From positions 1 to 51,790 of IMG/VR virus record IMGVR_UViG_3300025525_000038: a stretch of DNA of 51,790 bases. One strand, 5' to 3'. Position 1 is the first letter of the stretch. Every line of letters starts with the position of its first letter. Made by a program: the position numbers and the translations under genes. The notes below the pieces were generated by a model that was not told the DNA's origin, ran no database searches, and saw only the letters and a list, made by a program, of their open reading frames with translations. This stretch comes from a virus. Positions 1,682 through 38,157 of the stretch are shown one piece after another.

Positions 1682-2047
1682 TCATTCGTGAAACATCTTA
1701 TCTTGATTCACAGGTTGATGTCGGCTTAGCACCGGTAATGGATTTTTATTCAGTAGCTTTGCACTAAGCAACTCATCAATCATTTTGCGTAATGTAGATT
1801 CTGCAAGTCGAGTTTCCATCACCAATTTTTGCAGTAAATGCGTGGTATCAACGCATTCATTGATGCGCTTGATGACATAAGGGCGTACCAACTTTGGATT
1901 ATCCAAGCGTGGCACGTAAACAGTTAGTCCCGGTATGCCTATAATTAGTTGTTTGACGGCTTGAAGTCCTGCATTATCGGCAACAAATTTCAGGTTGTCC
2001 GGAAGGTCTTCGTATGTTATTAATGCGACAATATCTTCTTCTTTCAT
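1682..2047 (-). CDS. Mor-like transcription activator
   Basis: 121 residues. The N-terminal half (DLPDNLKFVADNAGLQAVKQ, then GLTVYVPRLDN) matches the pattern of the Mor/C family of Mu-like phages: an LP-x-L start, an alpha/beta dimerisation part and a short Tyr-x-Pro strand. The C-terminal half (about 65-105) has two helices typical of an HTH, with RLAESTLRKMID as recognition helix. In Mu, Mor activates the middle promoter that leads to late transcription. Here it is the last gene of the leftward early operon, a sensible place for a middle/late switch. Similarity is judged by eye; a generic winged-helix regulator is the alternative. Confidence 0.5.
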   Translation of the reverse strand: MKEEDIVALITYEDLPDNLKFVADNAGLQAVKQLIIGIPGLTVYVPRLDNPKLVRPYVIKRINECVDTTHLLQKLVMETRLAESTLRKMIDELLSAKLLNKNPLPVLSRHQPVNQDKMFHE

Positions 2048-2094: not shown

Positions 2095-3525
2095 TTAACC
2101 AATTTTCTGTTTATATTCTCTAACTAAATGCGGAACTGATGAAGGTTTCCATTCTACATTTTCGGCAAATACCGTAGCAATAGTTGTAATTTTTTCATCA
2201 GTTTTCGGTTTGTACTTATCCATCAAACGCCAAAAGACCCACTTGGGCTTAAAACCACGCTGAGTAGCTGTAAAATGCAACTTCTTGAATTCACCAACAA
2301 TATTGTTATACTCATTAGCTTTATGAATTTGAGCATCATCAACTTCAATCAATTCAAGCCACTCAGGTGGAATATCCATCGGTAAACGTTCTAAGGAATA
2401 CACTTTGCCTGTCAGCTTATCAAGTGCTTTTACTGTTTTCTTATACTTACCGCTCAATCCCCCCAAAGTCCAATCACGGTCAAATTCTAATTTGCCATGT
2501 GTCATTACTGCATTCGCCCAATCTGAAATGATTGCTTGTTCTTTTCCCTCAGCTGGACGTAACGCTCTACCCCCCATTTGCATAAACAAAGATAGTGATT
2601 CAGTTGGTCGAGCAAGTTGAATAACTTCAATTCCCGGGCAGTCAAAACCTTCTGTTAATATTCCAAAGTTTGAAATCACAGTTATACGCTTATCGGCAAA
2701 GTCCCGGAGAATTGATTTGCGTATTTCATCTGGAGTGTCACCATCAATATGAGCCGCTTTTATCCCTTTACGATTATAACTCTCTACGATATCCTTGCTA
2801 TGTTCGATGTTAATTGCAAAAACAACAGTTTGTTTGCCCTGAAAATACTTCAGGTGGTCTTCAATTAATAGCTCACATGGCATTTTTGCTCGGTAACTTT
2901 CGGCTAATTGTTTCAAATTGTAGTCACCACCTGTTTTCTTTACACCACCCAAATCAACAGGAGCATGAATAAGATATTTCGGTGGTACAAGATTTCCAAG
3001 TTCTATAAGTTCCTTGACCGTGGCGCCGATTACCATATCATCATAAACATCTTTAAATCCCGAACCATTTAACCTTATTGGAGTAGCCGTAACACCCAAC
3101 ACACGCAAAGTAGGCGAATACTTTTTGATTTTATCCCTTATCTTGCCGTATGTGTTGTTTTTTTGGTCATGGTGAGCTTCATCTACAATCATCAATTTAA
3201 ATGGAATATTCAAATCTCTACGGATTAAAGTTTGCACACTTGCCACTTGTACCGGAGCAGAGAGGTTGGGCGTATATCCTGATTTGATAACTCCAACCTC
3301 TAAATTATACCCGTTTTTCAACTTAGCGTATGCCTGACCAATCAATTCTTCACGATGAGCTAATATTAGCACTTTGTGACCTTTGGCAATACAGTCAGAC
3401 ACGATTGAAGAAAAACAATGAGTTTTGCCTGCGCCAGTGGGTAGCACTCCCATGACATTTATATTCGTGCGAAAACTATTATATATTGCTGATTTAAATC
3501 TTGCTTGATAAGGTCTTAACGTCAT
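2095..3525 (-). CDS. SF2 DEAH-box DNA helicase, phage replication
   Basis: 476 residues with a full set of superfamily 2 motifs: Walker A LPTGAGKT (about 28-35), DEAH at 115-118, GVTATP at about 144-149, the strand-separation motif EGFDCPG, and motif VI QMGGRALRP near 315. The length fits compact phage ResIII/SSL2-type helicases without nuclease domains. It probably unwinds DNA during phage replication or recombination. Its start overlaps the stop of the DUF1937-DnaA fusion by 4 nt (ATGA), which suggests coupled translation and perhaps a joint job. Whether it is the replicative helicase or a branch-migration enzyme cannot be told from sequence alone. Confidence 0.9.
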   Translation of the reverse strand: MTLRPYQARFKSAIYNSFRTNINVMGVLPTGAGKTHCFSSIVSDCIAKGHKVLILAHREELIGQAYAKLKNGYNLEVGVIKSGYTPNLSAPVQVASVQTLIRRDLNIPFKLMIVDEAHHDQKNNTYGKIRDKIKKYSPTLRVLGVTATPIRLNGSGFKDVYDDMVIGATVKELIELGNLVPPKYLIHAPVDLGGVKKTGGDYNLKQLAESYRAKMPCELLIEDHLKYFQGKQTVVFAINIEHSKDIVESYNRKGIKAAHIDGDTPDEIRKSILRDFADKRITVISNFGILTEGFDCPGIEVIQLARPTESLSLFMQMGGRALRPAEGKEQAIISDWANAVMTHGKLEFDRDWTLGGLSGKYKKTVKALDKLTGKVYSLERLPMDIPPEWLELIEVDDAQIHKANEYNNIVGEFKKLHFTATQRGFKPKWVFWRLMDKYKPKTDEKITTIATVFAENVEWKPSSVPHLVREYKQKIG

Positions 3526-4199
3526 AATTCTTTTTGTTCTGATAATATTTTTAATGCGTTTTCTTTTACTGCTATGAACTTTTTGTCTTTAGCAACCGAA
3601 TTCAATCTATCGTCGCAAAAAGTCAATGAATGGCAAATTGTGGAATGGTCAGTTCCCATTAAGCGACCAGCTTCGGGATAAGTGATGTGGCTATTCATAA
3701 TCATGAAAATGTATCTTGCTAAGTGTCGTGCATCGGCAATTCTACGAGTTTGTTTTTTGGATAATGTATTTTCTTTTTCGATGCCAACAGCTTTTGAAAC
3801 AACATCAACTATATCTTGGTACGATACTACGATTGAACTTCTGAAACGGTTTTTCTCAGCTTTATATTTCGCTTCCGGTTCATAGAATATGATTTCCTTG
3901 CCGGCTGTTTGGAAATCAGCCAACTCATCAACGACACCCTCGCTTAACTCCCATTGTGGAATACTTGGTATAATAATACCGCCACAAACTTCAATCATAG
4001 CATTGTTCTGTACCTCCCAAAACGATGCTTCGGGAGGTAGATTAAACAATTGAGTTTGAACGTGCCAATGAATTATAGGGCTATAAACAACATATCCTTT
4101 CTTTCGTAGCTCCTCAGATACAATAAGGGCGAAAACATAGCGATGACGCATTTTTGATAGCTTATCGCCTGAATATGGAGTTGCAAGATAGTAAATCAT
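3522..4199 (-). CDS. DUF1937 domain fused to DnaA domain IV
   Basis: 225 residues, two domains. Residues 1-105 (YYLATPYSGD start, SPIIHWH, FWEVQNNAMIEVC, ELSEGVVDEL) match DUF1937, a small Rossmann-like fold related to nucleoside deoxyribosyltransferases. Residues about 125-205 match the DNA-binding domain IV of the bacterial initiator DnaA over its whole length: LSKKQTRRIADARHLARYI, then GRLMGTDHSTICHS against the signature GRDHTTVLHA. Asp, His and the second Thr of the signature are kept, while the Arg of GRDH is Thr. No AAA+ domain is present. Coupled to the helicase gene by a 4-nt overlap, it may be an origin-binding factor. DnaA-like binding is inference from the motif. Confidence 0.85.
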   Translation of the reverse strand: MIYYLATPYSGDKLSKMRHRYVFALIVSEELRKKGYVVYSPIIHWHVQTQLFNLPPEASFWEVQNNAMIEVCGGIIIPSIPQWELSEGVVDELADFQTAGKEIIFYEPEAKYKAEKNRFRSSIVVSYQDIVDVVSKAVGIEKENTLSKKQTRRIADARHLARYIFMIMNSHITYPEAGRLMGTDHSTICHSLTFCDDRLNSVAKDKKFIAVKENALKILSEQKEL

Positions 4200-4200
4200 A

Positions 4201-4719
4201 TTAGTTCAATTTAAATGGTGATACAATAATTGCAGGTTCGACATAAACAGGGCGTGGCTGTTTAGTGCTTGGGTCAATCATAATTAGCCATGTGGCAGAA
4301 AGTCCTTCAGGCTTAAAAAGTCCGTTCGGCTCGGGTTGTGGCATACCGAAGCCGTATCCGCCACCGTTTGCCCATCTATCTCGTTCCAATCTCTCAGGGT
4401 TAGAAAATTGCGTACTGTAAGGAATGCCGTAGCCGATGCACTCCCCAAGATATTGACCAACTTCGCCTGTCATTTCGTTCATCAGATAAGCATGGCAAAT
4501 CAGATTTTCTTGGTCGCAAAGTTCGTAAATCCATTTCAGATTCTTTTTTTCTTGATAATTTACGATTGCAGGAAAGCCCACCTGACGGTTTGCCTCTTGC
4601 ATAATTTGTTCGGTTTGTGCTTGCGATTCTATGTCAGCACTCATTTCAACTTTATTTTCATCGCAGCCCATAAAACTAATGGCAATTAAGCTAATGAATA
4701 AAAACAACACTTTTTTCAT
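4201..4719 (-). CDS. Lipoprotein of unknown function
   Basis: 172 residues. The signal peptide ends in a lipobox (ISFMGC, Cys near residue 19), followed by an acidic stretch and a domain with several Cys residues (ELCDQENLICHAYLMN, LGECIGYG) and a GGGYGFGMPQPEP segment. An AAGGAG site precedes the ATG. It sits 1 nt after the DUF1937-DnaA gene within the early operon, so it is phage-encoded and exported. Phage lipoproteins in early operons can alter the infected cell's envelope, for example superinfection exclusion; nothing in the sequence proves that here. I do not recognise the family. Confidence 0.7.
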   Translation of the reverse strand: MKKVLFLFISLIAISFMGCDENKVEMSADIESQAQTEQIMQEANRQVGFPAIVNYQEKKNLKWIYELCDQENLICHAYLMNEMTGEVGQYLGECIGYGIPYSTQFSNPERLERDRWANGGGYGFGMPQPEPNGLFKPEGLSATWLIMIDPSTKQPRPVYVEPAIIVSPFKLN

Positions 4720-4736
4720 AAAATTCTCCTTAATTA

Positions 4737-5078
4737 TTAATTTGATTTGTATTTACATTCGCGGATGAAATCACGCAAAAAGCCTGATAAGTATTTATCC
4801 TCGTCAAAATTCGCAAAGTCCTGAGAAACGATATTTTTTAAAGCTTGTTTTCCGCTTTCGTCGGCATTTTGATATTCTTTGTAATATTTAAGAGCGGATT
4901 GGCGTTTGCCTTCAACATAGCTTTGCGTTTGCTCAAATACTTTACGTTTGGCATCTTGTTTGGCAGCGTAAATCGTCTCGGTTTGGTGAACTCCTATCCA
5001 GCCAAAAGCGTAGCTTAGTCCAATTATCCCCCCGATAATCAGAACGATAGCAAGTATTGTTATAATTGTACTTTTCAT
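4737..5078 (-). CDS. Small single-span membrane protein with helical tail
   Basis: 113 residues. One N-terminal membrane segment (about 4-26, very Ile/Leu/Gly rich) is followed by a charged, probably helical cytoplasmic or periplasmic part rich in Lys, Gln and Glu. Its layout (anchor plus amphipathic helix) resembles several phage LemA- or Rz-like proteins, but no family motif is seen. It lies 17 nt before the lipoprotein gene, and the two could act together at the membrane. Function unknown. Confidence 0.65.
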   Translation of the reverse strand: MKSTIITILAIVLIIGGIIGLSYAFGWIGVHQTETIYAAKQDAKRKVFEQTQSYVEGKRQSALKYYKEYQNADESGKQALKNIVSQDFANFDEDKYLSGFLRDFIRECKYKSN

Positions 5079-5079
5079 C

Positions 5080-5718
5080 TTAGTTCTCTACTTCTTCAAG
5101 TTCTTCGACTTCTTCAGGTTCTGTTGTTTCAAACGGATTGTCATTATCTTCGACTTCATCATTTTGTTCTTCGGGTTGAACTTCAATTGATACTGACTTA
5201 TCGAACAAACCACCGTCAACTACAGGTTCGGTATGTACTAACTTTCCTGAAGGAATGCCATAGTATTCAATCACTCCATCTTCGTAATTTTCAACTCGGC
5301 GAACTGACAAGGTTTGAACTTCTTTACCTACACGATATTTCCGAGATAAGGCACGGCGTTCATTGTCTTGCTCTTCGATTTCCTTTTTCAACCGTGTTGC
5401 AGAACGTTTGTAGCCATCCATTTCAGATTCTAATTTGTCAATGGAGCTATCCATAGCGGTGATTTGTTCTGCCAAAGTTGTTAGTTCTTCTTCTGAGAAT
5501 TCAACTTCAATATCAATAGTTGTAGCTTTACCGCGATTTTCATCAATGGCTTCTTCAGGTGGTGTGTCGGGGTCGGATTCTACTTTTGATTCGGATTCAT
5601 TACCTTCCCCAAATTCATCTGAGAATTCGTCAATTGTTTCCGGGTCATTAGGTTCTGAATATGATTTCATATTACCGTTTACAACGGCATTATCAATTAT
5701 TTTTGCTTCGATAGGCAT
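5080..5718 (-). CDS. Highly acidic coiled-coil protein
   Basis: 212 residues, extremely acidic at both ends (N-terminal ESESKVESDPDTPPEE; the C-terminus ends in EPEEVEELEEVEN). The middle (about 70-120) is a heptad-rich coiled coil with Leu, Ile and Met at spaced positions, ending in a basic stretch. The ATG follows a clear AAGGAG. The mix of acidic tails and a coiled coil is seen in phage single-strand-binding or scaffold-like early proteins and in DNA mimics, but no family is recognised. The gene ends 1 nt from the membrane protein gene. Confidence 0.65.
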   Translation of the reverse strand: MPIEAKIIDNAVVNGNMKSYSEPNDPETIDEFSDEFGEGNESESKVESDPDTPPEEAIDENRGKATTIDIEVEFSEEELTTLAEQITAMDSSIDKLESEMDGYKRSATRLKKEIEEQDNERRALSRKYRVGKEVQTLSVRRVENYEDGVIEYYGIPSGKLVHTEPVVDGGLFDKSVSIEVQPEEQNDEVEDNDNPFETTEPEEVEELEEVEN

Positions 5719-8422: not shown

Positions 8423-9064
8423 TTAAATGCTACCTTTTTTGATTCTTGATTCTAATTCTTTGTATTTCTCTTGCAATGCCTCATATTTAACTTTCAATTC
8501 AAGATACTGACCCATGATATTCCATTCTTCCGAACGTTCAAAAGTTGTTACCGTTGAAGCCGGCAATGCTCTATTGATTGATTCATATTCCGGCAATTGG
8601 AAATTATGCCTAATTTCGCCATAAAGAATAACACCATTGACTTCGTATCGCTTGATTTTATCCCAAATTTTCGGGTCTTTATTGCGATGAATTTCCATAA
8701 CGTCCGAATGAGTGAGTAACATCGGTCTGTCGTAGTTAAGGAAATCGGCACGAGTGAAAGTATCCCATTTGCAAGTATCAAGGAATGATTCAACTCGATT
8801 ACGAAATTCTTCGCTTGACCAATTCAACTCATTGCATCGTTCAAATATCATTTGGCATTTCAAACGTGAACTACTTTTGTCTGCATAGAAATCAAGTGAA
8901 TAATTTACGCTGAATTTGGCAAGCATGTAATCGAGGTCGAGCTTAGTCATACGACTGCCATAAACAGAACCATATGGTATTGACTGCAATCTATTATACC
9001 TTTCATCTTCTTGAGATGGCATCATAGCAAGATTTTCATCAATTTTTGTCAGCATTGTTCCCAT
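8423..9064 (-). CDS. Probable phage replication accessory protein
   Basis: 213 residues, starting inside the end of the initiator gene (26-nt overlap) behind AGGAAC. The body is helical, with a patterned central part (DYMLAKFSVNYSLDFYADKS, then CNELNWSSEEFRNRVESFLD) and a C-terminal coiled coil (YLELKVKYEALQEKYKELES). In many phages the gene after a DnaD-like initiator encodes a helicase loader or primosome partner. No Walker motif is present, so it is not a DnaC-type ATPase. The assignment rests on position only. Confidence 0.55.
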   Translation of the reverse strand: MGTMLTKIDENLAMMPSQEDERYNRLQSIPYGSVYGSRMTKLDLDYMLAKFSVNYSLDFYADKSSSRLKCQMIFERCNELNWSSEEFRNRVESFLDTCKWDTFTRADFLNYDRPMLLTHSDVMEIHRNKDPKIWDKIKRYEVNGVILYGEIRHNFQLPEYESINRALPASTVTTFERSEEWNIMGQYLELKVKYEALQEKYKELESRIKKGSI

Positions 9065-9908
9065 TTTTAGTTCCTGTAATTTCTTCTAATTTTGCAAATT
9101 CGTTGTTTCTATATAAATCAAAGTCATTGTTTGGATGTGGGTCGTATTTCATAATTACGTCTTCACCAAATCCGGCTTTTCTTCTTGATTCCGCAAGTGC
9201 ATCCATGTCAATACCGTTTTGTTTACTTTGCTTAGGCGACGTTTTCGCTTTTTCAACTACTATTTCATCATTCCAGCTTCGATTTCGCAAATATGTTTCA
9301 GGGTTCTTGCGGTACTGTTTGTCCGGAGTGCTTAAAACATATTTCGGAACATGGTCAATGATTTTTACGTATTCCTTTTCAGGAATTTTCGAGAATAAAG
9401 AATAGCATTTTTCTTTCCCAAGTTTTTTATCGTACAAAAGCCAAAATTGCTCAAAAAGGTTTTTTACAAGAACTTTATCGCCTGTGTTAGTTTCTTCTTT
9501 CTTTCTTATATTCTTATATTCTTTAGTTGTTGTCCTTTGTTTGTCTTCTGTTTGCTCTTTGTTTGTCTTTTGTTTGTCTTTTTCAGTTATTTCAACTTGG
9601 TAAGTGTCGTAATTAGAAACACTTATAACCGTATATTTGTTTGTTGTTTTTACCGAAATTTCACCTGTTTTTGACAAACAATTTAAAGCCCTTCGTACCT
9701 GCATTACTGACAGTTTAATTTCATCAGACAGCTTTAGCAAAGAGGTAACAAAACTGCCTCTTTTGATAGTAGCATCTAACCATTCCTTATCAGTAAAATT
9801 GGCTTTAAATATACAATGCGCAAACACCCTAAATACAACTGTGTCCTGATACCATTGCCAATCTAAAATCCTTCTGTGAATCTTTACCCAACCACTCATT
9901 TCGTGCAT
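9039..9908 (-). CDS. Replication initiator (DnaD/replisome-organiser type)
   Basis: 289 residues. Residues 1-105 (GWVKIHRRILDWQWYQDTVV, later KRGSFVTSLLKLSDEIKLSV and VRRALNCLSKTGEISVK) are the typical winged-helix N-terminus of phage replisome organisers. A Lys/Gln/Thr linker follows (about 110-140), then a C-terminal helical domain with FWLLYDKKLGKEK and TYLRNRSWNDE, which in this family contacts the helicase loader. The linker DNA carries five 11-bp repeats (9525-9578), the pattern expected if the origin lies inside the initiator gene, as in lambda O. Start may be ATG 9908 or ATG 9899; no clear Shine-Dalgarno. Confidence 0.8.
   Translation of the reverse strand: MHEMSGWVKIHRRILDWQWYQDTVVFRVFAHCIFKANFTDKEWLDATIKRGSFVTSLLKLSDEIKLSVMQVRRALNCLSKTGEISVKTTNKYTVISVSNYDTYQVEITEKDKQKTNKEQTEDKQRTTTKEYKNIRKKEETNTGDKVLVKNLFEQFWLLYDKKLGKEKCYSLFSKIPEKEYVKIIDHVPKYVLSTPDKQYRKNPETYLRNRSWNDEIVVEKAKTSPKQSKQNGIDMDALAESRRKAGFGEDVIMKYDPHPNNDFDLYRNNEFAKLEEITGTKNGNNADKN
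9525..9578. repeat. Five 11-bp phased repeats inside the initiator gene
   Basis: On the plus strand the decamer TTTGTTTGTC is exact at 9536, 9558 and 9569. The copy at 9547 (TCTGTTTGCT) and the copy at 9525 (AGTTGTTGTC) are degenerate. All five begin exactly 11 bp apart. As 11 is not a multiple of 3, the spacing is not explained by a peptide repeat. A related 11-bp array lies at 20248-20302. Confidence 0.75.
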
Positions 9909-17350: not shown

Positions 17351-18136
17351 ATGAGTAATTGTATTATGTGTTCGATAGCACTAACTGCTAACAATAAACG
17401 CACTTTCGGTGCAGGGAAAATAAGAGGTGGTGAAGAAGTATGCCTCAATTGTTTTAAAAAAATAAATGATGCTAATCCAACTATCGCCAAAAGTCTTAAA
17501 CGTTACACTCTCGCTGAAATTCTGGAAAGCTTTACTGAGCGAGAAAAAGAAAACGCCGAGATTTTAGAACGGAAAGCATTATTAGATACCGAGAAAGATA
17601 AACAGAGCTTGCGTTTAGTAGAAATCAGAACCCAAATTCAAAGCCTTGGGCTTGATAATTCTTCTGCCTTTTGGGGGAGAAAAGAAATTAACGAACTCCC
17701 AGAAATCCTGAACATAGATGAAAGTATTGACAATATCATTCAAGGGACCTACAATAACGGTCAAGGGATTCTTGTATCAACAAACAGAAGGCTCGTTTTT
17801 GTTGACAAAGGACTTCTCTACGGTTTAAAAGTAGAAGACTTCCCCTTAGATAAAATCACCTCAATACAGTATGAAACAGGCATGGTATTTGGCAAAGTAA
17901 AAATCCATACTTCCGGGAACACTGCAAATATTGAAAATGTAGATAAAAATTCTGCCCGAAAGTTCGCAGAATTCATTAGGAATAAACTATCAGAACCAAA
18001 GCCGACGGTGATAACAAGCAAACCCGAGCCGGACGTACTTGAGCAACTCGCTAAGCTTGGCAAACTTCATGAAAGTGGGATACTATCGGAGCAAGAATTT
18101 AGTGAGCAAAAGAAGAAGTTGCTTGATAAATTATGA
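17351..18136 (+). CDS. Zinc-ribbon / bacterial PH-like / SHOCT protein
   Basis: 261 residues in three parts. (1) A zinc ribbon with Cys4, Cys7, Cys31 and Cys34. (2) After a charged helical stretch, a PH-like domain at about 125-215 (GILVSTNRRLVFVDKGLL, DFPLDKITSIQYE, FAEFIRNKL). (3) A C-terminal SHOCT motif (LEQLAKLGKLHESGILSEQE), a short oligomerisation or membrane-recruiting motif common in accessory proteins. It lies between two repressor genes inside a duplicated control region. Such proteins occur in phage and defence loci but their function is unknown. Confidence 0.8.
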   Translation: MSNCIMCSIALTANNKRTFGAGKIRGGEEVCLNCFKKINDANPTIAKSLKRYTLAEILESFTEREKENAEILERKALLDTEKDKQSLRLVEIRTQIQSLGLDNSSAFWGRKEINELPEILNIDESIDNIIQGTYNNGQGILVSTNRRLVFVDKGLLYGLKVEDFPLDKITSIQYETGMVFGKVKIHTSGNTANIENVDKNSARKFAEFIRNKLSEPKPTVITSKPEPDVLEQLAKLGKLHESGILSEQEFSEQKKKLLDKL

Positions 18137-19859: not shown

Positions 19860-20247
19860 GCAGTAAGCTATATCATTTTCTCCATTTGGGGAATATGATA
19901 CTACTTTTGTACTACATATTCCTTGTAACTCCCTATTCATCTACTATCTCTGCTATATGTTAAATTATTAGGCAAGACTAAGAAATTTGACAGATTAAAC
20001 AGATACATAGCACACCCCAAGAGGCAGTCCTATACAGCATCCTAAAAATCTGCAACAAACAAAAGGCAAACAAAATATGCTTATACAATCAGTATTCATC
20101 GGTAATATCTGCTATTATCAATCACGAAAAGATAAACAAATAACAAACAATAACACACAGATTTTAAGAAATATCGAAAAAACAACAAACAAAATACCTT
20201 TGATGTAGCGTGTATTCATCGGCGTTTCAAGAGAGCAAAATTTCAAT

Positions 20248-20302
20248 AACAACAAACAAACAACAAACAAACAACAAACAAACAACAAACAAACAACAAA
20301 CA
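20248..20302. repeat. Five perfect 11-bp tandem repeats
   Basis: AACAACAAACA is repeated five times without mismatch at 20248, 20259, 20270, 20281 and 20292. Single copies of AACAACAAAC (or GACAACAAAC) recur at about 20181, 20359, 20372, 20435 and 20513. The period and CAAACAA-type sequence match the array inside the initiator gene at 9525-9578. Confidence 0.85.
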
Positions 20303-20310
20303 AAATGTAA

Positions 20311-20586
20311 CTGAAATAGGGCTATTAGTATGCGTTTTCAGGTTTGCACTTTTCAAAAACAACAAACAAAACAACAAACAAACTGCATTTTCGATGTAAA
20401 TTCGATGCAAATTCGATGTGATTTTCATCACCCAAACAACAAACAAAATATTACTGAAAACACTGTATTGGTCTATGTCAACGGATTGTAATTTTCATTA
20501 CGCAACAAACGGACAACAAACAAAAAAAGGCTGAGATGTCGCTATTAGCAAGCGTATTCAGGTTTGCACTTTTCAAAAACAACAAC
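20311..20586. repeat. Imperfect direct repeat, 56 bp, 220 bp apart
   Basis: 20311-20366 and 20531-20586 align without gaps; 29 bases in a row are identical (20337-20365 and 20557-20585). Each ends in an AACAAC element. A weaker relative with GTATTCATCGG occurs at about 20092 and 20212. Confidence 0.8.
20390..20422. repeat. Three 11-bp TTCGATG repeats
   Basis: TTCGATGTAAA, TTCGATGCAAA and TTCGATGTGAT lie head to tail at 20390, 20401 and 20412. This is the second repeat family with an 11-bp period in this region. It runs into a GTGAT-tttc-ATCAC hairpin. Confidence 0.75.
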
Positions 20587-20714
20587 AACTTAAGAATATA
20601 ATACAAAGACAAAGAAATAAAGAAAAGAAGAAATAAAGAAATATAAAAGAAAAAATCCGAATTTCGCATTCGCAAAATTCTTGAGTATGATTTTCAACTC
20701 CGGTTTAAAAATTT

Positions 20715-21808: not shown

Positions 21809-23488
21809 TTAATCATACAATTCATCCATGTTCAAATCTTCGTTTACAACCTGCGTTCTTTTGGTTGCTTTTTTAAATGTTTGAGTTGGCAATCCGGTAA
21901 TAGGAAATACAAATGAATTCCCGCCCATAATCGCCTCTACAGTTAATATTTGAACTCTATCAATCTGAGTTGATTGAATCACTCCGTTGATTTCTATTTT
22001 ATATTTCCCTGCTTCTTTTGCTAAATGCAACATCCCTTTAGTGACGTGACTTTCAAAGCATACGAAAACACCTATATCGGGTTTTTGCCTTTCAACAACA
22101 TTCATAAATGCTCTTAAATCAGCTATTCCGATTCCACCGGATTTTACTTCAACGAGAGCAACCCCCTTTCTTCCATCTAATCGCGTAAAAGTAACATATC
22201 CATCTTTTCCGCCGTCACCTGACTTTTTAGGATTACTAACACCACCTAATTTAAACTCGATTATCCAATCTTGGAAAAAACTTCTATGTTTATCCGTGCC
22301 TGTTGCTAATTCACGCGCTGATGCAATATCTCTTGGGAATCCGTCAATTTGAATCTCGGCTAATATTTTTGAAGCCATTTCTCCATGTGGTTTTGCAATC
22401 CTTTCAAGCACAAGTTTGATTGCTAAATGTGAAATATCCGCACCTATCCATTGCCGATTTAGTCGGTTTGCAACGGCTACAGTTGTTCCGCATCCACAAA
22501 AGAAATCAGCTACAATGTCTCCCTCGTTCGAACTCGCATTGATTATTCGTTCAAGCAAGGCTTCAGGTTTTTGTGTAGGGTAGCCGAGAGATTCGTCGGC
22601 ATTCGATTGAATGCGGAATATATCGTCCCACAAATTCCCAACGGGTCTACCTCTATCTTCATCAACACGATATTTGCGATAAGGCATACCGTTTTTTCGC
22701 CAGGCTAAATCACCTCTTTCGTCAATAGCAATTAATTTCTCTTTTCTAACTACCCAACCCCATTTATCTGGAGTGAAGCCTTTGTATTCGTAAACCAAGT
22801 TCGGTCTTTCACCCTTTGAAGCTGATCGCAATATTGGATATTCTAAATACCTGCCTCTTTCATCTTCTTTAGGATACTTGGTTAACAATTCATCCATATC
22901 CAATGAAGAACGAACGCTATCAAGCTCAAAATAATAATCCTTTGATTTAGTATAGTACAAAAGAGTATCTGTATAAACACCATACTTTTTGTCTTTAAAT
23001 TGAGAACCTTTAGGGTTGTTAGTCCGCTTCCATATTATTTCATTTCTGTAATTTCCGGCACCAAATATCAAATCACAAACTAACTTCAAGTAATGACTCA
23101 TCGTAGAATCACAATGCAGATAAAAACTGCCGGTATCTTTCAAGACTTTGTGTATGTAGTAAATTCGAATCGTCATAGTGGTTAAATAGGAAATAGCACT
23201 TTTCGATAACCTTATGCTATCCAAAGCATTCAAAAACACATACAAATCATCATCCAAGCCCCTGATTTCGTCCATTGTGTCCATATAAGAAACATTGCTC
23301 CAAGTATCTGCAAATGCTTCTTTCTGCGCCTTGGTATCCTTCAGGTCAATATCTTCAAACAAAACATTGTAGTTCCGCTTTGAATTGAACGGCGGGTCTA
23401 TGTAAACCAAATCTATGAATCCTTTCGGATATTCGGCATTTAGCCGTTTCAACACATCTAAACAATCACCAAAGTAGATTTTTTTCAT
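21809..23488 (-). CDS. DNA adenine/cytosine-N4 methyltransferase fused to Mrr-like nuclease
   Basis: 559 residues. Motif IV (VYIDPPFNSKRNY, about 28-40) precedes motif I (DFFCGCGTTVAVANRLNRQW, about 320), the beta-class order of N6-adenine or N4-cytosine enzymes. The C-terminal 150 residues (GGKDGYVTFTRLDGRKGVAL, then VEVKSGG) carry the Asp...Glu-x-Lys set of Mrr-type restriction nucleases, followed by a QILTVEAIM segment typical of such tails. Methylation and cutting in one chain suggests a self-contained modification-restriction enzyme, or a methylase with a regulatory nuclease domain. It stands alone with its own terminator. Target sequence unknown. Confidence 0.85.
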   Translation of the reverse strand: MKKIYFGDCLDVLKRLNAEYPKGFIDLVYIDPPFNSKRNYNVLFEDIDLKDTKAQKEAFADTWSNVSYMDTMDEIRGLDDDLYVFLNALDSIRLSKSAISYLTTMTIRIYYIHKVLKDTGSFYLHCDSTMSHYLKLVCDLIFGAGNYRNEIIWKRTNNPKGSQFKDKKYGVYTDTLLYYTKSKDYYFELDSVRSSLDMDELLTKYPKEDERGRYLEYPILRSASKGERPNLVYEYKGFTPDKWGWVVRKEKLIAIDERGDLAWRKNGMPYRKYRVDEDRGRPVGNLWDDIFRIQSNADESLGYPTQKPEALLERIINASSNEGDIVADFFCGCGTTVAVANRLNRQWIGADISHLAIKLVLERIAKPHGEMASKILAEIQIDGFPRDIASARELATGTDKHRSFFQDWIIEFKLGGVSNPKKSGDGGKDGYVTFTRLDGRKGVALVEVKSGGIGIADLRAFMNVVERQKPDIGVFVCFESHVTKGMLHLAKEAGKYKIEINGVIQSTQIDRVQILTVEAIMGGNSFVFPITGLPTQTFKKATKRTQVVNEDLNMDELYD

Positions 23489-33084: not shown

Positions 33085-34134
33085 ATGTCTATTATGCTTG
33101 ATATGTTTGACTCGCGTTCAATGACCGCAGCAGTCAATAAAACTAAAGTATTTGACCCGTTTGTCTTGGATATGCTTTTCAGTAAACCTGAGGGACATGC
33201 GGCTGATAAAATTGACCTTGAAGTAATTTCACATAGTGATAAATTAGCAAAGTTCGTGAACCAACATGAGGGTCCGAGATTGCTACAAAAAGACAATCGT
33301 GTGTATCAAACAGTTTCACTTCCACGAACCTATGAAGAATACATCTTCACGGCTCAAGAACTTGCAGATTACAACGCTTTTGGTCAGATATATGACCAAA
33401 ATCCGGGACGTAAAGCTGAGGAAGCTAATAAGTTTGTTGTAAGGCATTTAGAATATCTCAAATCAAGGGCGATGCTTAGACGCGAATGGATGGCTTGTAA
33501 AGCTATTTCAACAGGTGAAGTTGCGGTAGCACAAACCAACATCTCGTTCAACATTGATTACTTGTTTGAAAATAATGTTCATTTGACTGATTTGGGTGCT
33601 GGTAACTATTGGGATGATGAAACAGGTGATATTTTGACTAACATCCGTGCATGGAAACGTGACATATTACGCCGTTGTGGTCAATCCCCTGACATTGTAA
33701 TTTTAGGTACTGATGCTTCTGATGCGTTTGTGTCAAATGAGGTCGTTAAAAAAGCACTCGATACAAACAACTATAAAATCGGTACTTTGGATTTAAACGC
33801 AACTCAATCTGGAGCGGCTAATTATCTTGGTAAAATCATGGGTATTGACTTCTACGAATACAACCAACAATTCAAAGACGACAATGACACATCAACTGAG
33901 TTAATCCCTGTGGATAGAGCTATTGTTACTTTCCGTAAGAATAGCAACAATCGTGTGCATTATGGTCCGGTGTATAATCTTGTTAATAAGAAACTTCAAA
34001 CTATCATTTCCGAGTTTCACTTGGATGTTGAAGAAAAGAACAAAAAAGCTATGTCGTGGACTTTGGAACAAAAGTCATTACCTGCAATTCATGATGCCGA
34101 TTCCTTTATCTCCTGTAAAGTTGTTGGTGATTAG
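33085..34134 (+). CDS. Major capsid protein (lambda gpE family)
   Basis: 349 residues. Features are of the phage capsid E family: MLDMFDSRSMTAAVNKTKVF, FSKPEGHAADKIDLEV, YEEYIFTAQELADYNAF and RREWMACKAISTG, with the C-terminal AIVTFRKNSNNRVHYGPVYN and VEEKNKKAMSWTLEQKSLPA. It assembles into the icosahedral shell with the HK97 fold. It lies in the expected place after the protease and decoration genes; a hairpin follows it. Confidence 0.9.
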   Translation: MSIMLDMFDSRSMTAAVNKTKVFDPFVLDMLFSKPEGHAADKIDLEVISHSDKLAKFVNQHEGPRLLQKDNRVYQTVSLPRTYEEYIFTAQELADYNAFGQIYDQNPGRKAEEANKFVVRHLEYLKSRAMLRREWMACKAISTGEVAVAQTNISFNIDYLFENNVHLTDLGAGNYWDDETGDILTNIRAWKRDILRRCGQSPDIVILGTDASDAFVSNEVVKKALDTNNYKIGTLDLNATQSGAANYLGKIMGIDFYEYNQQFKDDNDTSTELIPVDRAIVTFRKNSNNRVHYGPVYNLVNKKLQTIISEFHLDVEEKNKKAMSWTLEQKSLPAIHDADSFISCKVVGD

Positions 34135-34668: not shown

Positions 34669-35105
34669 TGGAATTGGAAATTGTAGATGCAGTTGTTGAA
34701 TATCTCAAGACTAAGATTAGTCCTGATGATGCATGTGTTCAAGAAATGCCGGAAATGTATAATGAAAACGAATCGGAAGAGAATTATTTAACACATCCCC
34801 ATGCTGACATATTCATTTATGACAACGGCAGTCGTGGCGGACGTAAAGATATCAATTCACATAGCAACACAATTGCAATTGGATTCACTATATACAGTAT
34901 ATCGGAAAGACATCCTCGATATGGTGCAAAGGTTTTAGCTCAAAAAATCAGAAAAGAATTAACTGTCTTTTATCCGGAATTAGAATCAGGGATTATTGAA
35001 TCTATTGAATGGGCATCAACTGACCCGCTCCCATCGGTTAAGGATGGAACAGTCCTTATGGGGATGATAATTAATTACAATGGAATATATTTCGACGGAC
35101 ACTAA
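34668..35105 (+). CDS. Head-tail connector (Gp37-like)
   Basis: 145 residues. VDAVVEYLKTKISPDDACVQ, later ADIFIYDNGSRGGRK and IAIGFTIYSISERHPRYGAK, fit the Mu gp37-type/DUF1834 proteins which have an N-terminal helix pair and a beta sheet and help tail completion. It follows the gp36-like gene with a 1-nt overlap and lies before the small membrane genes. Confidence 0.7.
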   Translation: MELEIVDAVVEYLKTKISPDDACVQEMPEMYNENESEENYLTHPHADIFIYDNGSRGGRKDINSHSNTIAIGFTIYSISERHPRYGAKVLAQKIRKELTVFYPELESGIIESIEWASTDPLPSVKDGTVLMGMIINYNGIYFDGH

Positions 35106-35106
35106 C

Positions 35107-35409
35107 ATGGACAATTGGCTGATACTTGGAATAATACTCGAATTTATTTTAGCGGTTTTCCTTCTGCTTTTCGGCTTTATTTTAAAGTCAGCAGCGAATG
35201 CAGTTAAAGAGCTTAAAATCATTGTTCAAAGCCTTGTTTCTTTTATGGACAAACAAAGCGAAAAGAATGACAATTGGACAAAGCAATTCGAGTTACTGTG
35301 GAATAAATATAATGACCACTCAAAAGAAATTAACGATTCAAAAGATAGAATTAAATCAATAGAGTATAGGGCGAAATATGGCAGAGAATATAGAAAAGAA
35401 AACGGATAA
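35107..35409 (+). CDS. Membrane-anchored coiled-coil protein
   Basis: 100 residues from MDNWLILGIILEFILAVF; the longer frame overlaps the preceding gene. One membrane helix (about 4-24) is followed by a helical polar part (ELKIIVQSLVSFMDKQSEKN, then KQFELLWNKYNDHSKEINDS). This anchor-plus-coil design is like small phage hemolysin/holin-associated or Rz-like proteins. It is the first of a run of small membrane genes between the head and tail genes. Confidence 0.6.
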   Translation: MDNWLILGIILEFILAVFLLLFGFILKSAANAVKELKIIVQSLVSFMDKQSEKNDNWTKQFELLWNKYNDHSKEINDSKDRIKSIEYRAKYGREYRKENG

Positions 35410-35626
35410 CATAGGCAAGTTGCTAACAAAAATCAATTCCTTGTTATCATATGCTGATTTGCAAGAACTTGAGGTTGCCGGCAAAGTTGACCTGTTGGTA
35501 TTAAGCAAAGAAATACGCTTGTTGACCATAGCGGCTAAAGAAGAAGCTAAAAACATCACAGATGACCAAGCTGATGAACTTAGTTTGCGGTTTGGCGATG
35601 CGTTCTTTAAAATACTGAGAGGCTAA
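35378..35626 (+). CDS. Small helical protein
   Basis: 82 residues, almost wholly helical (KLLTKINSLLSYADLQELEV, LLVLSKEIRLLTIAAKEEAK). It overlaps the preceding gene by 32 nt in another frame and lies 1 nt before the next, so it belongs to the same translationally coupled cluster. Function unknown. Confidence 0.55.
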   Translation: MAENIEKKTDNIGKLLTKINSLLSYADLQELEVAGKVDLLVLSKEIRLLTIAAKEEAKNITDDQADELSLRFGDAFFKILRG

Positions 35627-35627
35627 C

Positions 35628-36248
35628 ATGACTACGATTGATGAAAGACTAACAGGTCTTGAAGAAAATATTGCCGAAATCTTAGAGCATATTAGACCCA
35701 AAGAAGTTAAAACCGAAGCAGACCCAAACCAAATACTTATGGATGAAATAGTTGCTATTTCAAACGAGATGGATTTGTTAATTGACGAAGTTAAATCGGT
35801 TCGTAAAGATGTTCAAATTGCAATCGAACAACCGTTTGAGGCATCAGAAGAACTAAGCGAAGCTGATAAAAAGTTCAACACACGAAGAAACATCTTTGTT
35901 ATAGGTGGATTAGCCGTAACAGGAGCATTATCTTTAACGTTTTGGCTCTACTTTCTGCCACTATTCGCGGTCGCAATTGGAGTGTTCTTCTCATTTGGGA
36001 TGTTGGCTCTGGTTTTAGCTTACGATGAATTTGTATTACCCGGAAACACAATTAAAAGGATAGCACAAAATGCGATTGCTTCCGCTATATTTATTCTTGC
36101 TCTTGTTGTCATTATTAGCACTGGCATTCAGGTCGGAAATTCCCTTATCTCTGACAGAAGTCAGAGCGAAGAGTATCGCCAACCAACTGCTACTGAAAGA
36201 CAAGCAGAAACAAGAACAGAACCAAGCATCGGAGAATCTGAGGAGTGA
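35628..36248 (+). CDS. Membrane protein with coiled-coil head
   Basis: 206 residues. A coiled-coil N-terminus (ERLTGLEENIAEILEHIRPK) is followed by hydrophobic segments at about 90-107, 108-130 and 150-170, then a polar tail rich in Gln, Glu and Arg. The N-terminal coil with membrane hairpin resembles phage holins of the XhlA or Mu-like type, but it is long for a holin. Its last 179 nt also encode, in another frame, the start of the endolysin gene, with membrane-like segments in both frames. Confidence 0.6.
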   Translation: MTTIDERLTGLEENIAEILEHIRPKEVKTEADPNQILMDEIVAISNEMDLLIDEVKSVRKDVQIAIEQPFEASEELSEADKKFNTRRNIFVIGGLAVTGALSLTFWLYFLPLFAVAIGVFFSFGMLALVLAYDEFVLPGNTIKRIAQNAIASAIFILALVVIISTGIQVGNSLISDRSQSEEYRQPTATERQAETRTEPSIGESEE

Positions 36249-37026
36249 AATACCACTTCATGTTCATCTCATGCTTGAATGCCTTCATGTTGTTGAACAA
36301 CCGAAAGGCTCAAATCGTGGCGACAGTATTGACATTTGGCGTAAGTATTTTGGCTTCTTATATCCTGTGCCATGGTGTGGAATTTTTGGGGGGATAAAAT
36401 CAAAAGAGGGCAAAGCATATCCAATCATTATGTCCGCACGTGCAAGAGATTATGCAGTAATTGGGCGTACTTATGCTTTAAGCGACGTAATTTATGGCAA
36501 TTATATCCCTAAGCCCGGAGATTGGAGAGTAAAGCGAAGACCGGGCGGAGCACATGTTGACACGTTTGTTTCATGGGACACTTTAGCACAAGAAGGCATT
36601 ATTATCGGGGGGAACGTGAATGATGCAGTAAAAATGAGGGAAATTACGCTTAGAGGCATGATTGCCGATGGCACAACGCATATAACTGATGTTGCAAGTT
36701 ATTATGAATTTATAGAAGCGGAGACTAAAGATGAGATTCTTGAAACTATGGAAGGCATTGCGACCTATTATTCCGATTATTTTGACGGTCGCCGGACAGC
36801 TAATGGAGAAATATATAGACCGGAAGCTTTCACAGCAGCCCACAAAGAACTCGAATTTGGAACAAGAGTTAGAGTCACAAACATCAGAAATGGAAAGTCA
36901 GTCGAAGTCAGAATCAACGACCGTGGACCGTTCAAAAACAATGCAATAATTGACTTGAGTCGTGCAGCAGCAGATTCAATTAATATACGAAAAGGAAAAG
37001 TACTCATTGAAGTACTTAATTATTAA
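36070..37026 (+). CDS. Two-domain endolysin: cysteine hydrolase-like plus RlpA-like transglycosylase
   Basis: 318 residues. ATG 36070 has AAGGAT 7 nt ahead. Residues 3-20 are a Leu-rich signal or anchor. Residues about 70-200 look like a CHAP/NlpC-type amidase or peptidase: PWCGIFGG with Cys103 and GGAHVDTFVSW with His162. Residues 228-318 are an RlpA-like double-psi barrel (GIATYYSDYFDGRRTANGEI, AAHKELEFGT, INDRGPF, IIDLSRAAAD) keeping the His (258) and Asp (284) used by lytic transglycosylases. The protein could thus cut both peptide and glycan bonds. The N-terminal 60 residues overlap the upstream membrane-protein gene. Confidence 0.75.
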   Translation: MRLLPLYLFLLLLSLLALAFRSEIPLSLTEVRAKSIANQLLLKDKQKQEQNQASENLRSEIPLHVHLMLECLHVVEQPKGSNRGDSIDIWRKYFGFLYPVPWCGIFGGIKSKEGKAYPIIMSARARDYAVIGRTYALSDVIYGNYIPKPGDWRVKRRPGGAHVDTFVSWDTLAQEGIIIGGNVNDAVKMREITLRGMIADGTTHITDVASYYEFIEAETKDEILETMEGIATYYSDYFDGRRTANGEIYRPEAFTAAHKELEFGTRVRVTNIRNGKSVEVRINDRGPFKNNAIIDLSRAAADSINIRKGKVLIEVLNY

Positions 37027-37044
37027 AAATATATGGAGTTTATC

Positions 37045-37389
37045 ATGGAATTTTTAATTGAAGTATTTAATAATAATACCGTATTGTTTGGGTTGGTTGG
37101 ATTGCTTGTTGTATGCTTTATAGGAATAATGTTATTGCAATGGATTGCAGATAAGACAGGCGTAAACACGGACAAACTTCAAGAGGAGCTAAAAAAGACT
37201 GCCGAAGATGCTCAAGTTGAAACTGCTAAGGAATTGAAAAAGACAGTTGAGAAAATTACTGATGGTGGTCAAGTTGAATCCGCTCCCAAAAACAAATACG
37301 CCCTTCGCGATGAAACAGGAAAGTTTGTCAAAGCGGATGAAGCTACTGAAAAGCGTAAAGTTGGACGTCCGAGAAAGGTGCAAAAATGA
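37045..37389 (+). CDS. Membrane protein with AT-hook-like tail
   Basis: 114 residues from MEFLIEVFNNNTVLFG; ATG 37045 follows a GGAG, unlike ATG 37033. One membrane helix (about 13-33) is followed by a Lys/Glu-rich helix and a tail with KRKVGRPRKVQK. GRPRK is the AT-hook core that binds the minor groove of AT-rich DNA. A membrane anchor with a DNA-binding tail is unusual for a lysis-region protein. It overlaps the next gene by 4 nt. Confidence 0.6.
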   Translation: MEFLIEVFNNNTVLFGLVGLLVVCFIGIMLLQWIADKTGVNTDKLQEELKKTAEDAQVETAKELKKTVEKITDGGQVESAPKNKYALRDETGKFVKADEATEKRKVGRPRKVQK

Positions 37390-37646
37390 GCGAAATAAAC
37401 GAGAAACGTATCTACTTATTTGGTGGATTGACTGGGGTACTCATTTTAACCATTGCAATCTATCTACTCGCCGCATTTATAAACGTTGAATGGAATCCAT
37501 TGGAGTGGAATATTGTTGTAAAAGCTGTATCTGCCATAGGATGGATGTATGGAAGTTCATATATCATGAAAGATTATATCAATGTTTTAAAAGCCACTAA
37601 TAAAAAACAGATATGTGAAGTAAAAACACCAAAGGTGAAGCAATGA
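37386..37646 (+). CDS. Two-span membrane protein, candidate holin
   Basis: 86 residues, two hydrophobic segments (about 8-30 and 40-62) with short loops and a Lys-rich end (KKQICEVKTPKVKQ). Size and topology fit class II holins, and it is near the endolysin gene. It overlaps its neighbours by 4 nt on each side. Confidence 0.55.
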   Translation: MSEINEKRIYLFGGLTGVLILTIAIYLLAAFINVEWNPLEWNIVVKAVSAIGWMYGSSYIMKDYINVLKATNKKQICEVKTPKVKQ

Positions 37647-37834
37647 GAAACCGCGAACCTGTGACTATTAACATTAGCGACGAAGCACGGCGAAAAGCTG
37701 ACAAAGCGGCTAAAGAAATTAAATGTAGCCGTAATGACATAATAGAATCACTACTCTTGTTTTTCAATGTAGAAATGTACGAACGATGTTTTAGATACCA
37801 ACAAATCCAAGATGCTTTAAAAGGGAAGTCATGA
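37643..37834 (+). CDS. Ribbon-helix-helix (CopG/MetJ-like) protein
   Basis: 63 residues. The start EPVTINISDEARRKADKAAK is a beta strand and helix, followed by EIKCSRNDIIESLLLFFNVE, the two-helix pattern of CopG-type repressors. It sits, unexpectedly, between a membrane protein gene and a lipoprotein gene in the lysis cluster, coupled to both by 4-nt overlaps. It may regulate late genes. Confidence 0.65.
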   Translation: MRNREPVTINISDEARRKADKAAKEIKCSRNDIIESLLLFFNVEMYERCFRYQQIQDALKGKS

Positions 37835-38157
37835 ATAAATTAATCAAATCAATATTGTTATTCTCAGTAATACTACTTAGTTTGTCAAGTTGCGATACTG
37901 CTAAATACATATACGAGAATGTTTCAATCACTTGGAAGCCATTAGAAGCCCAAAGAAACACCGCTCCGATAGATTCCATTGTTGTGAGATATGAGCCGGT
38001 ATATTGGACAGAACCGCCATGTATGGACGGCTCTACCAATGAAGTTGAATACGAAATACTTAAAGATGGTCATATTATTTGGGCTCTCGACAATCCGTAT
38101 GCAAGACGTAGAGAAGTTTTGATTAAAGATACAGTAATTTATATTTATAGGAAGTAA
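37831..38157 (+). CDS. Lipoprotein in the lysis region, possible spanin partner
   Basis: 108 residues. The signal peptide ends in LSLSSC (Cys at about residue 21). The mature part is beta-rich (ITWKPLEAQR, IDSIVVRYEPVYWTEPPC, VEYEILKDGHIIWALD). Outer-membrane spanins (Rz1) are small lipoproteins near the endolysin genes, but Rz1 is usually Pro-rich and shorter, so this is only a possibility. It is the last of the coupled cluster. Confidence 0.6.
   Translation: MNKLIKSILLFSVILLSLSSCDTAKYIYENVSITWKPLEAQRNTAPIDSIVVRYEPVYWTEPPCMDGSTNEVEYEILKDGHIIWALDNPYARRREVLIKDTVIYIYRK

Follow-up and report, generated by a model that had tools for sequence, protein, structure and literature searches.

A DUF1937 domain fused to a lone DnaA domain IV in the early replication operon of a temperate phage

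Genes and domains at the locus

The window (the whole stretch of DNA analysed, 51,790 nucleotides) contains a gene in which a DUF1937 domain is fused to DnaA domain IV. The carrier of the fusion is a temperate tailed phage, present as a prophage. The gene lies in an early operon on the minus strand together with genes for an exonuclease, an SbcC-like ATPase, RusA and a DnaD-like initiator (Table 1). The ATG of the following helicase gene overlaps the stop codon of the fusion gene (ATGA). A reading made from the sequence only had placed the fusion in a phage replication operon and coupled it to a helicase, and both points were confirmed. Host dnaA is a separate gene on a different contig.

Two Pfam domains were identified in the fusion protein. 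DUF1937 (PF09152) matched residues 3-107 with 46.5 bits (cut-off 23, E 6.7e-12) and Bac_DnaA_C (PF08299) matched residues 128-192 with 48.8 bits (cut-off 31.5, E 7e-13). The profile search therefore agreed with the proposal that DUF1937 is joined to a DnaA DNA-binding domain. The AAA+ part had been described as missing, and this was also the case. Residues 1-127 matched only DUF1937 and the related family DUF4406 in Pfam, the latter below its cut-off, and neither AAA+ domain III nor domain I was found. The protein is thus not a DnaA. In PHROG the N-terminal part resembled a relative of nucleoside 2-deoxyribosyltransferase. PADLOC gave no match to the fusion and a defence-system reading was dropped.

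Proteins from the window, the loci and viral contigs were aligned as input for an AlphaFold2 model. The model had a mean pLDDT of 88.6, with two confident domains separated by a low-confidence linker. The best Foldseek match of the first domain in the PDB was 1T1J, a solved DUF1937 protein which the DUF1937 profile also matched in sequence (E 8e-21). For the second domain the matches were 3pvp and 1j1v, both solved DNA-binding domains of DnaA, with probability 1.00 and a TM of 0.74-0.75 by target.

Two other genes of the window were of interest in their own right. The gene at 21809-23488 on the minus strand encodes an N6/N4 DNA methyltransferase with a C-terminal stretch resembling NA-iREase1 and Mrr restriction domains. 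The gene at 17351-18136 on the plus strand encodes a 261 amino acid protein which, on reading the sequence by eye, ends in a short SHOCT-like helical motif.

Table 1. Features of the window discussed in the text.
Feature	Position	Strand	Evidence
Last gene of operon, 121 aa, weakly similar to late transcriptional activator family	1682..2047	minus	PHROG 836, E 0.0023
Superfamily 2 helicase (ResIII/Helicase_C, PHROG 16)	2095..3525	minus	Pfam, PHROG
Fusion gene, DUF1937 + linker + DnaA domain IV, 225 aa	3522..4199	minus	ORF, Pfam, AlphaFold2, Foldseek
DnaA domain IV, aa 128-192; recognition motif TDHST aa 183-187	3624..3818	minus	Pfam, Foldseek (1j1v, 3pvp)
Disordered linker, aa 115-121	3837..3857	minus	pLDDT<50
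DUF1937 domain, aa 3-107, nucleoside deoxyribosyltransferase / nucleotide N-glycosidase fold	3879..4193	minus	Pfam, PHROG, profile alignment
Phage's own DnaD-like replication initiator / helicase loader	9039..9908	minus	PHROG 2514 and 270
Iteron-like ACAAACAAA repeats inside initiator gene, probable phage origin	9530..9647	minus	
Second, intergenic array with this repeat core (AACAACAAACAAA), not present in sister phages	20053..20590	plus	

Sister copies, conserved residues and distribution

A search for the same architecture found two further copies, both in one genome of the same genus (G001), on contigs C3 (locus L004) and C20 (locus L016). Both contigs also carry phage genes. The C3 copy is 65-66% identical to the window fusion and is followed by the same helicase. 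The C20 copy is 35-37% identical; its DUF1937 domain is retained while the DnaA part has drifted, and the gene directly downstream encodes a D5-type primase-helicase.

Window and C3 copies were compared by segment. Residues 1-112 are 74% identical (dN 0.20, dS about 1.7) and residues 123-225 are 60% identical (dN 0.29, dS about 1.5), giving dN/dS ratios of about 0.12 and 0.19, respectively, which are rough as dS is near saturation. The linker residues 113-122 are only 10% identical. Purifying selection acts on both halves but conservation does not extend to the linker, so that the two domains were kept and the spacer was not.

In an alignment of DUF1937 proteins Tyr4, Ser86, Gly88 and Glu92 of the fusion were invariant or nearly so. 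In a profile alignment to nucleoside deoxyribosyltransferases of the PDB, Glu92 aligned with their conserved Glu and Asn65 with an Asp/Asn position. The general-acid Asp is replaced by N65 in the fusion, and Asn is also usual across DUF1937. The catalytic residues of DNPH1 are Y24, D80 and E104, and its phosphate serine is S98 (PMC10603095). The spacing of S86 and E92 in the fusion equals that of S98 and E104 in DNPH1, although the mapping of residues onto DNPH1 is inferred and not read from a direct alignment. A nucleotide enzyme activity of this half is possible, not assured.

Contacts of E. coli DnaA with the DnaA box are made by R399, P423, D433, H434, T435 and H439 (PMC7561715). The window fusion retains P423, D433, H434 and H439, and Ser replaces T435 as it does in host DnaA (DHST). 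The R399 position is Gln in the window copy and Arg in the C3 copy, and the R432 position is Thr in both. The signature reads GTDHST in the window fusion and DTDHST in the C3 copy, compared to GNRDHST in host DnaA, which bears out the Thr for Arg exchange read from the window. The equivalent of K415 is seemingly lost, and one residue is deleted ahead of the recognition helix. With R399 and R432 altered and K415 apparently lost, the DNA specificity of the fusion may have changed. Judging by these residues, the fusion could plausibly bind a related box, perhaps with lower affinity or a shift in preference.

The C3 copy scored 40.6 bits against Bac_DnaA_C, above the cut-off of 31.5, while the C20 copy had no Bac_DnaA_C match in Pfam. 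In the C20 copy HPTT replaces DHST and the DHS/T contacts are lost, so DnaA-box binding is not needed in every phage with this architecture. Its DnaA part was modelled with low confidence (about 57-79 by block), still as a DnaA-IV-like run of helices.

The fusion was rare in all collections searched. No further full-length match was found among 123 genomes of the order or among 391 genomes of the class. When 395 genomes of the phylum were searched for DUF1937, the only match was in the genome of the window itself; this sample was even and the G001 copies were unreported in it, so that it gauges how rare DUF1937 is in hosts and does not bear on the sister copies. No other fusion of DUF1937 to DnaA domain IV was found in the phage records, plasmids and IMG/VR contigs searched. 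A scan of viral contigs with the fusion as a single protein gave no match, though the viral-contig scans rely on peptide patterns and distant fusions could escape them. The literature searched for DUF1937 gave no mention of it. As far as these literature and sequence searches reached, the pairing is new, in line with the earlier remark that no such system had been described, and so far it is confined to phages of one bacterial genus.

The single domains were far more common. DUF1937 alone is present in many viral contigs. Lone DnaA domain IV is an already known, common and annotated kind of phage protein, frequent in replication modules, with hundreds of examples in IMG/VR. Relatives were encoded by at least 406 of the 600 pattern matches examined, and a second scan added 59. 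A DnaA ATPase domain was also present in 15 of 111 DnaA domain IV proteins from viral contigs, and DUF1937 was not among the 25 families listed for these 111. The two domains were found as separate neighbouring genes in one viral contig (L050), 4.5 kb apart and with the DnaA match below the Pfam cut-off, which is too little to use. A tree of the 70-residue domains did not resolve host dnaA from phage lone domains as the source of the DnaA part.

Neighbours of the lone DnaA domain IV genes in viral contigs included replication initiation proteins, primosomal proteins, RusA, Sak and helicase. GapR and GcrA, cell-cycle DNA-binding proteins of alphaproteobacteria, were also among the neighbours in viral contigs L090-L169. 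A lone DnaA domain IV-like protein was encoded in MT839073.1 (L079) and in other human faecal phage contigs of 4-7 kb, the records of which are unverified and unannotated.

Probable phage origin, DnaA boxes and proposed role

Two iteron-like arrays had been noted in the window and both were confirmed, with the ACAAACAAA core common to them. They had also been suggested for testing as binding sites of the fusion. This target was rejected, as neither of the two sister phages, both of which retain the fusion, has the array motif, and as the core lies within the gene of the DnaD-like initiator. The arrays travel with the initiator, since the motif is lacking in the C3 phage, whose initiator has a different N-terminus, and in the C20 phage. 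The initiator genes at 9039-9908 of the window and at 4351-5277 of locus L082 occupy the same place in sister phages and are alike in the C-terminal part only, the N-terminal part having been swapped together with the iterons. In a separate case, the gene block at 35080-38157 is about 97% identical to a block of a different prophage in another genome (L085 2535-5585, G001:C20), whereas the otherwise closest phage, on G001:C3, is only about 50-76% identical there. This difference points to recent module exchange.

Perfect DnaA boxes (TTATNCACA) were absent from the window compared to 3.2 expected, a deficit which is not significant alone. One was found in the C3 phage region (2.7 expected) and five in the C20 contig (2.2 expected). 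The host genome of 3.53 Mb contains 174. The absence of boxes from the phage and their number in the host make phage DNA less likely as the target of the fusion, and binding to phage DnaA boxes, as had been proposed, is unlikely.

The reading favoured here, and held tentatively, is that the fusion is an early accessory replication protein which occupies DnaA-box-type DNA, likeliest on the host, and in which the nucleotide domain would be a modulator or local enzyme. It is favoured on account of both domain matches, the predicted folds, the kept contacts, purifying selection, the operon position, the neighbours of lone DnaA domain IV genes in G012 and in viral contigs, the phage's own initiator and the box counts. 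The altered R399 and R432, the apparent loss of K415, the drifted DnaA part of the C20 copy and a helicase operon in G020 that has no fusion gene speak against it. DnaA domain IV would bind TTATCCACA-type DNA and carry the DUF1937 domain on a flexible linker. Replication of the phage probably starts at the iterons, bound by the DnaD-like initiator. With an initiator and iterons of the phage's own, the fusion would not be the main recogniser of the origin, and lacking domains I-III it cannot melt DNA or load helicase in the manner of DnaA. It would instead occupy DnaA boxes mainly on the host chromosome, at oriC and at DnaA-controlled promoters. Initiation in the host would be held back or redirected while the same operon yields the helicase and initiator of the phage. 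The role of the DUF1937 part would be to bind or cleave a nucleotide or deoxynucleotide and in this way to tune DNA binding or change the local nucleotide pool. A bolder form of this proposal, considered improbable, is that the fusion brings a nucleotide-cleaving or -sensing domain to host DnaA boxes as a DNA-targeted enzyme which stops or re-times initiation at oriC to the benefit of the phage.

A possible but doubtful alternative is a positive phage replication factor, the DnaA domain IV part sitting on phage DNA and helping to recruit or couple the adjacent helicase. The ATGA overlap fits this role, as does the helicase lying immediately downstream in all three fusion loci. Lone DnaA domain IV genes also recur in replication modules and lie near helicases in G012 and MW202496. 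The order in the related phage of G012 is a homologous ResIII helicase, a 107-aa gene, a separate 89-aa DnaA-IV-like gene and a 301-aa gene, which from its N-terminal sequence looks like a phage initiator. However, the window has no perfect DnaA box and the sister phage region has one, and it is the DnaD-like initiator, not the fusion, that the iterons go with. In G020 the homologues of 5080-5718 and 2095-3525 belong to a related helicase operon with no fusion gene between them, showing that the fusion is dispensable to that helicase. The link between fusion and helicase is repeated, not obligatory.

Transcriptional regulation is a serious alternative, if an unlikely one. Here DnaA domain IV would bind phage promoters in the way of GafA and GafY and DUF1937 would sense a nucleotide. 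GafA and GafY are the best-studied DnaA-IV-like proteins of phage origin and activate phage-like gene clusters, and the fusion gene is close to the end of the early operon. Four DnaA boxes with one mismatch each lie within 81 bases at 33909-33989 on the minus strand, where the gene of the major head protein ends, a density reached in none of 40 simulations. This cluster was not seen in the sister phage, however, and no DnaA-box cluster was conserved between the phages. The operon already ends in a gene for a candidate late activator, weakly supported, and no RNA polymerase-contact domain was recognised in the fusion.

Loss of DnaA-box binding, by which the DnaA-like part would be no more than the tail of a nucleotide enzyme and serve folding, dimerisation or non-specific binding to DNA, is rather improbable: R399Q, R432T, the deletion before the recognition helix and the full loss of the DH motif in the C20 copy point that way, but the D-H-S-T-(x3)-H motif is retained in both close copies under purifying selection.

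Hundreds of phages encode a stand-alone DnaA DNA-binding domain, and no functional experiment on one in a lytic or temperate phage was found in the papers searched. The nearest cases tested by experiment are activators of gene transfer agents. If the two halves of the fusion cooperate, lone domains may serve host takeover or nucleotide-linked control of replication and not simply recognition of the phage origin. As a phage with the fusion has a separate initiator, it is unsafe to label such genes 'DnaA' or 'replication initiator'.

Comparison with known systems

The lone DnaA domain IV proteins of phages are like the fusion in having Bac_DnaA_C without AAA+ and in being encoded in early or replication modules. 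Examples are gp22 of Pelagibacter phage HTVC203P, EVB88_078 of Rhizobium phage RHph_N28_2 and those of Microcystis phage Mae-JY35 and phage C72C1. The family PHROG 27829, 'DnaA-like replication initiation protein', is a further example. They differ from the fusion in that an extra recognised domain, if any, is mostly an AAA+ ATPase, DUF1937 not being among the families listed for the 111 viral-contig members.

Stand-alone DUF1937 (1T1J) and the fold of DNPH1, MilB and nucleoside deoxyribosyltransferase share the domain and the Y...S-x-G-V-x-x-E residues with the fusion. Unlike the fusion, the viral relatives of stand-alone DUF1937 are nearly all single-domain proteins. Active N-glycosidase and deoxyribosyltransferase enzymes have an acid Asp where the fusion has Asn.

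GafA and GafY of alphaproteobacterial gene transfer agents are also DnaA-IV-like without AAA+ and derived from phage (PMC9638019, PMC9632790). Both bind promoters through this domain and contact RNA polymerase (PMC9638019, PMC11150451, PMC9632790). GafY was named HdaB when first reported to affect replication. Unlike the fusion, GafA has a sigma-factor-like second DNA-binding region, acts on transcription and has no DUF1937 domain.

YfdR of the E. coli cryptic prophage CPS-53 binds Phe46 in domain I of DnaA, and its gene cluster inhibits initiation (PMC4776307). The resemblance to the fusion is that YfdR, a member of a nucleotide-hydrolase family, is encoded in a prophage and linked to DnaA. 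It differs in having an HD domain and no DnaA domain IV, and in targeting the DnaA protein itself.
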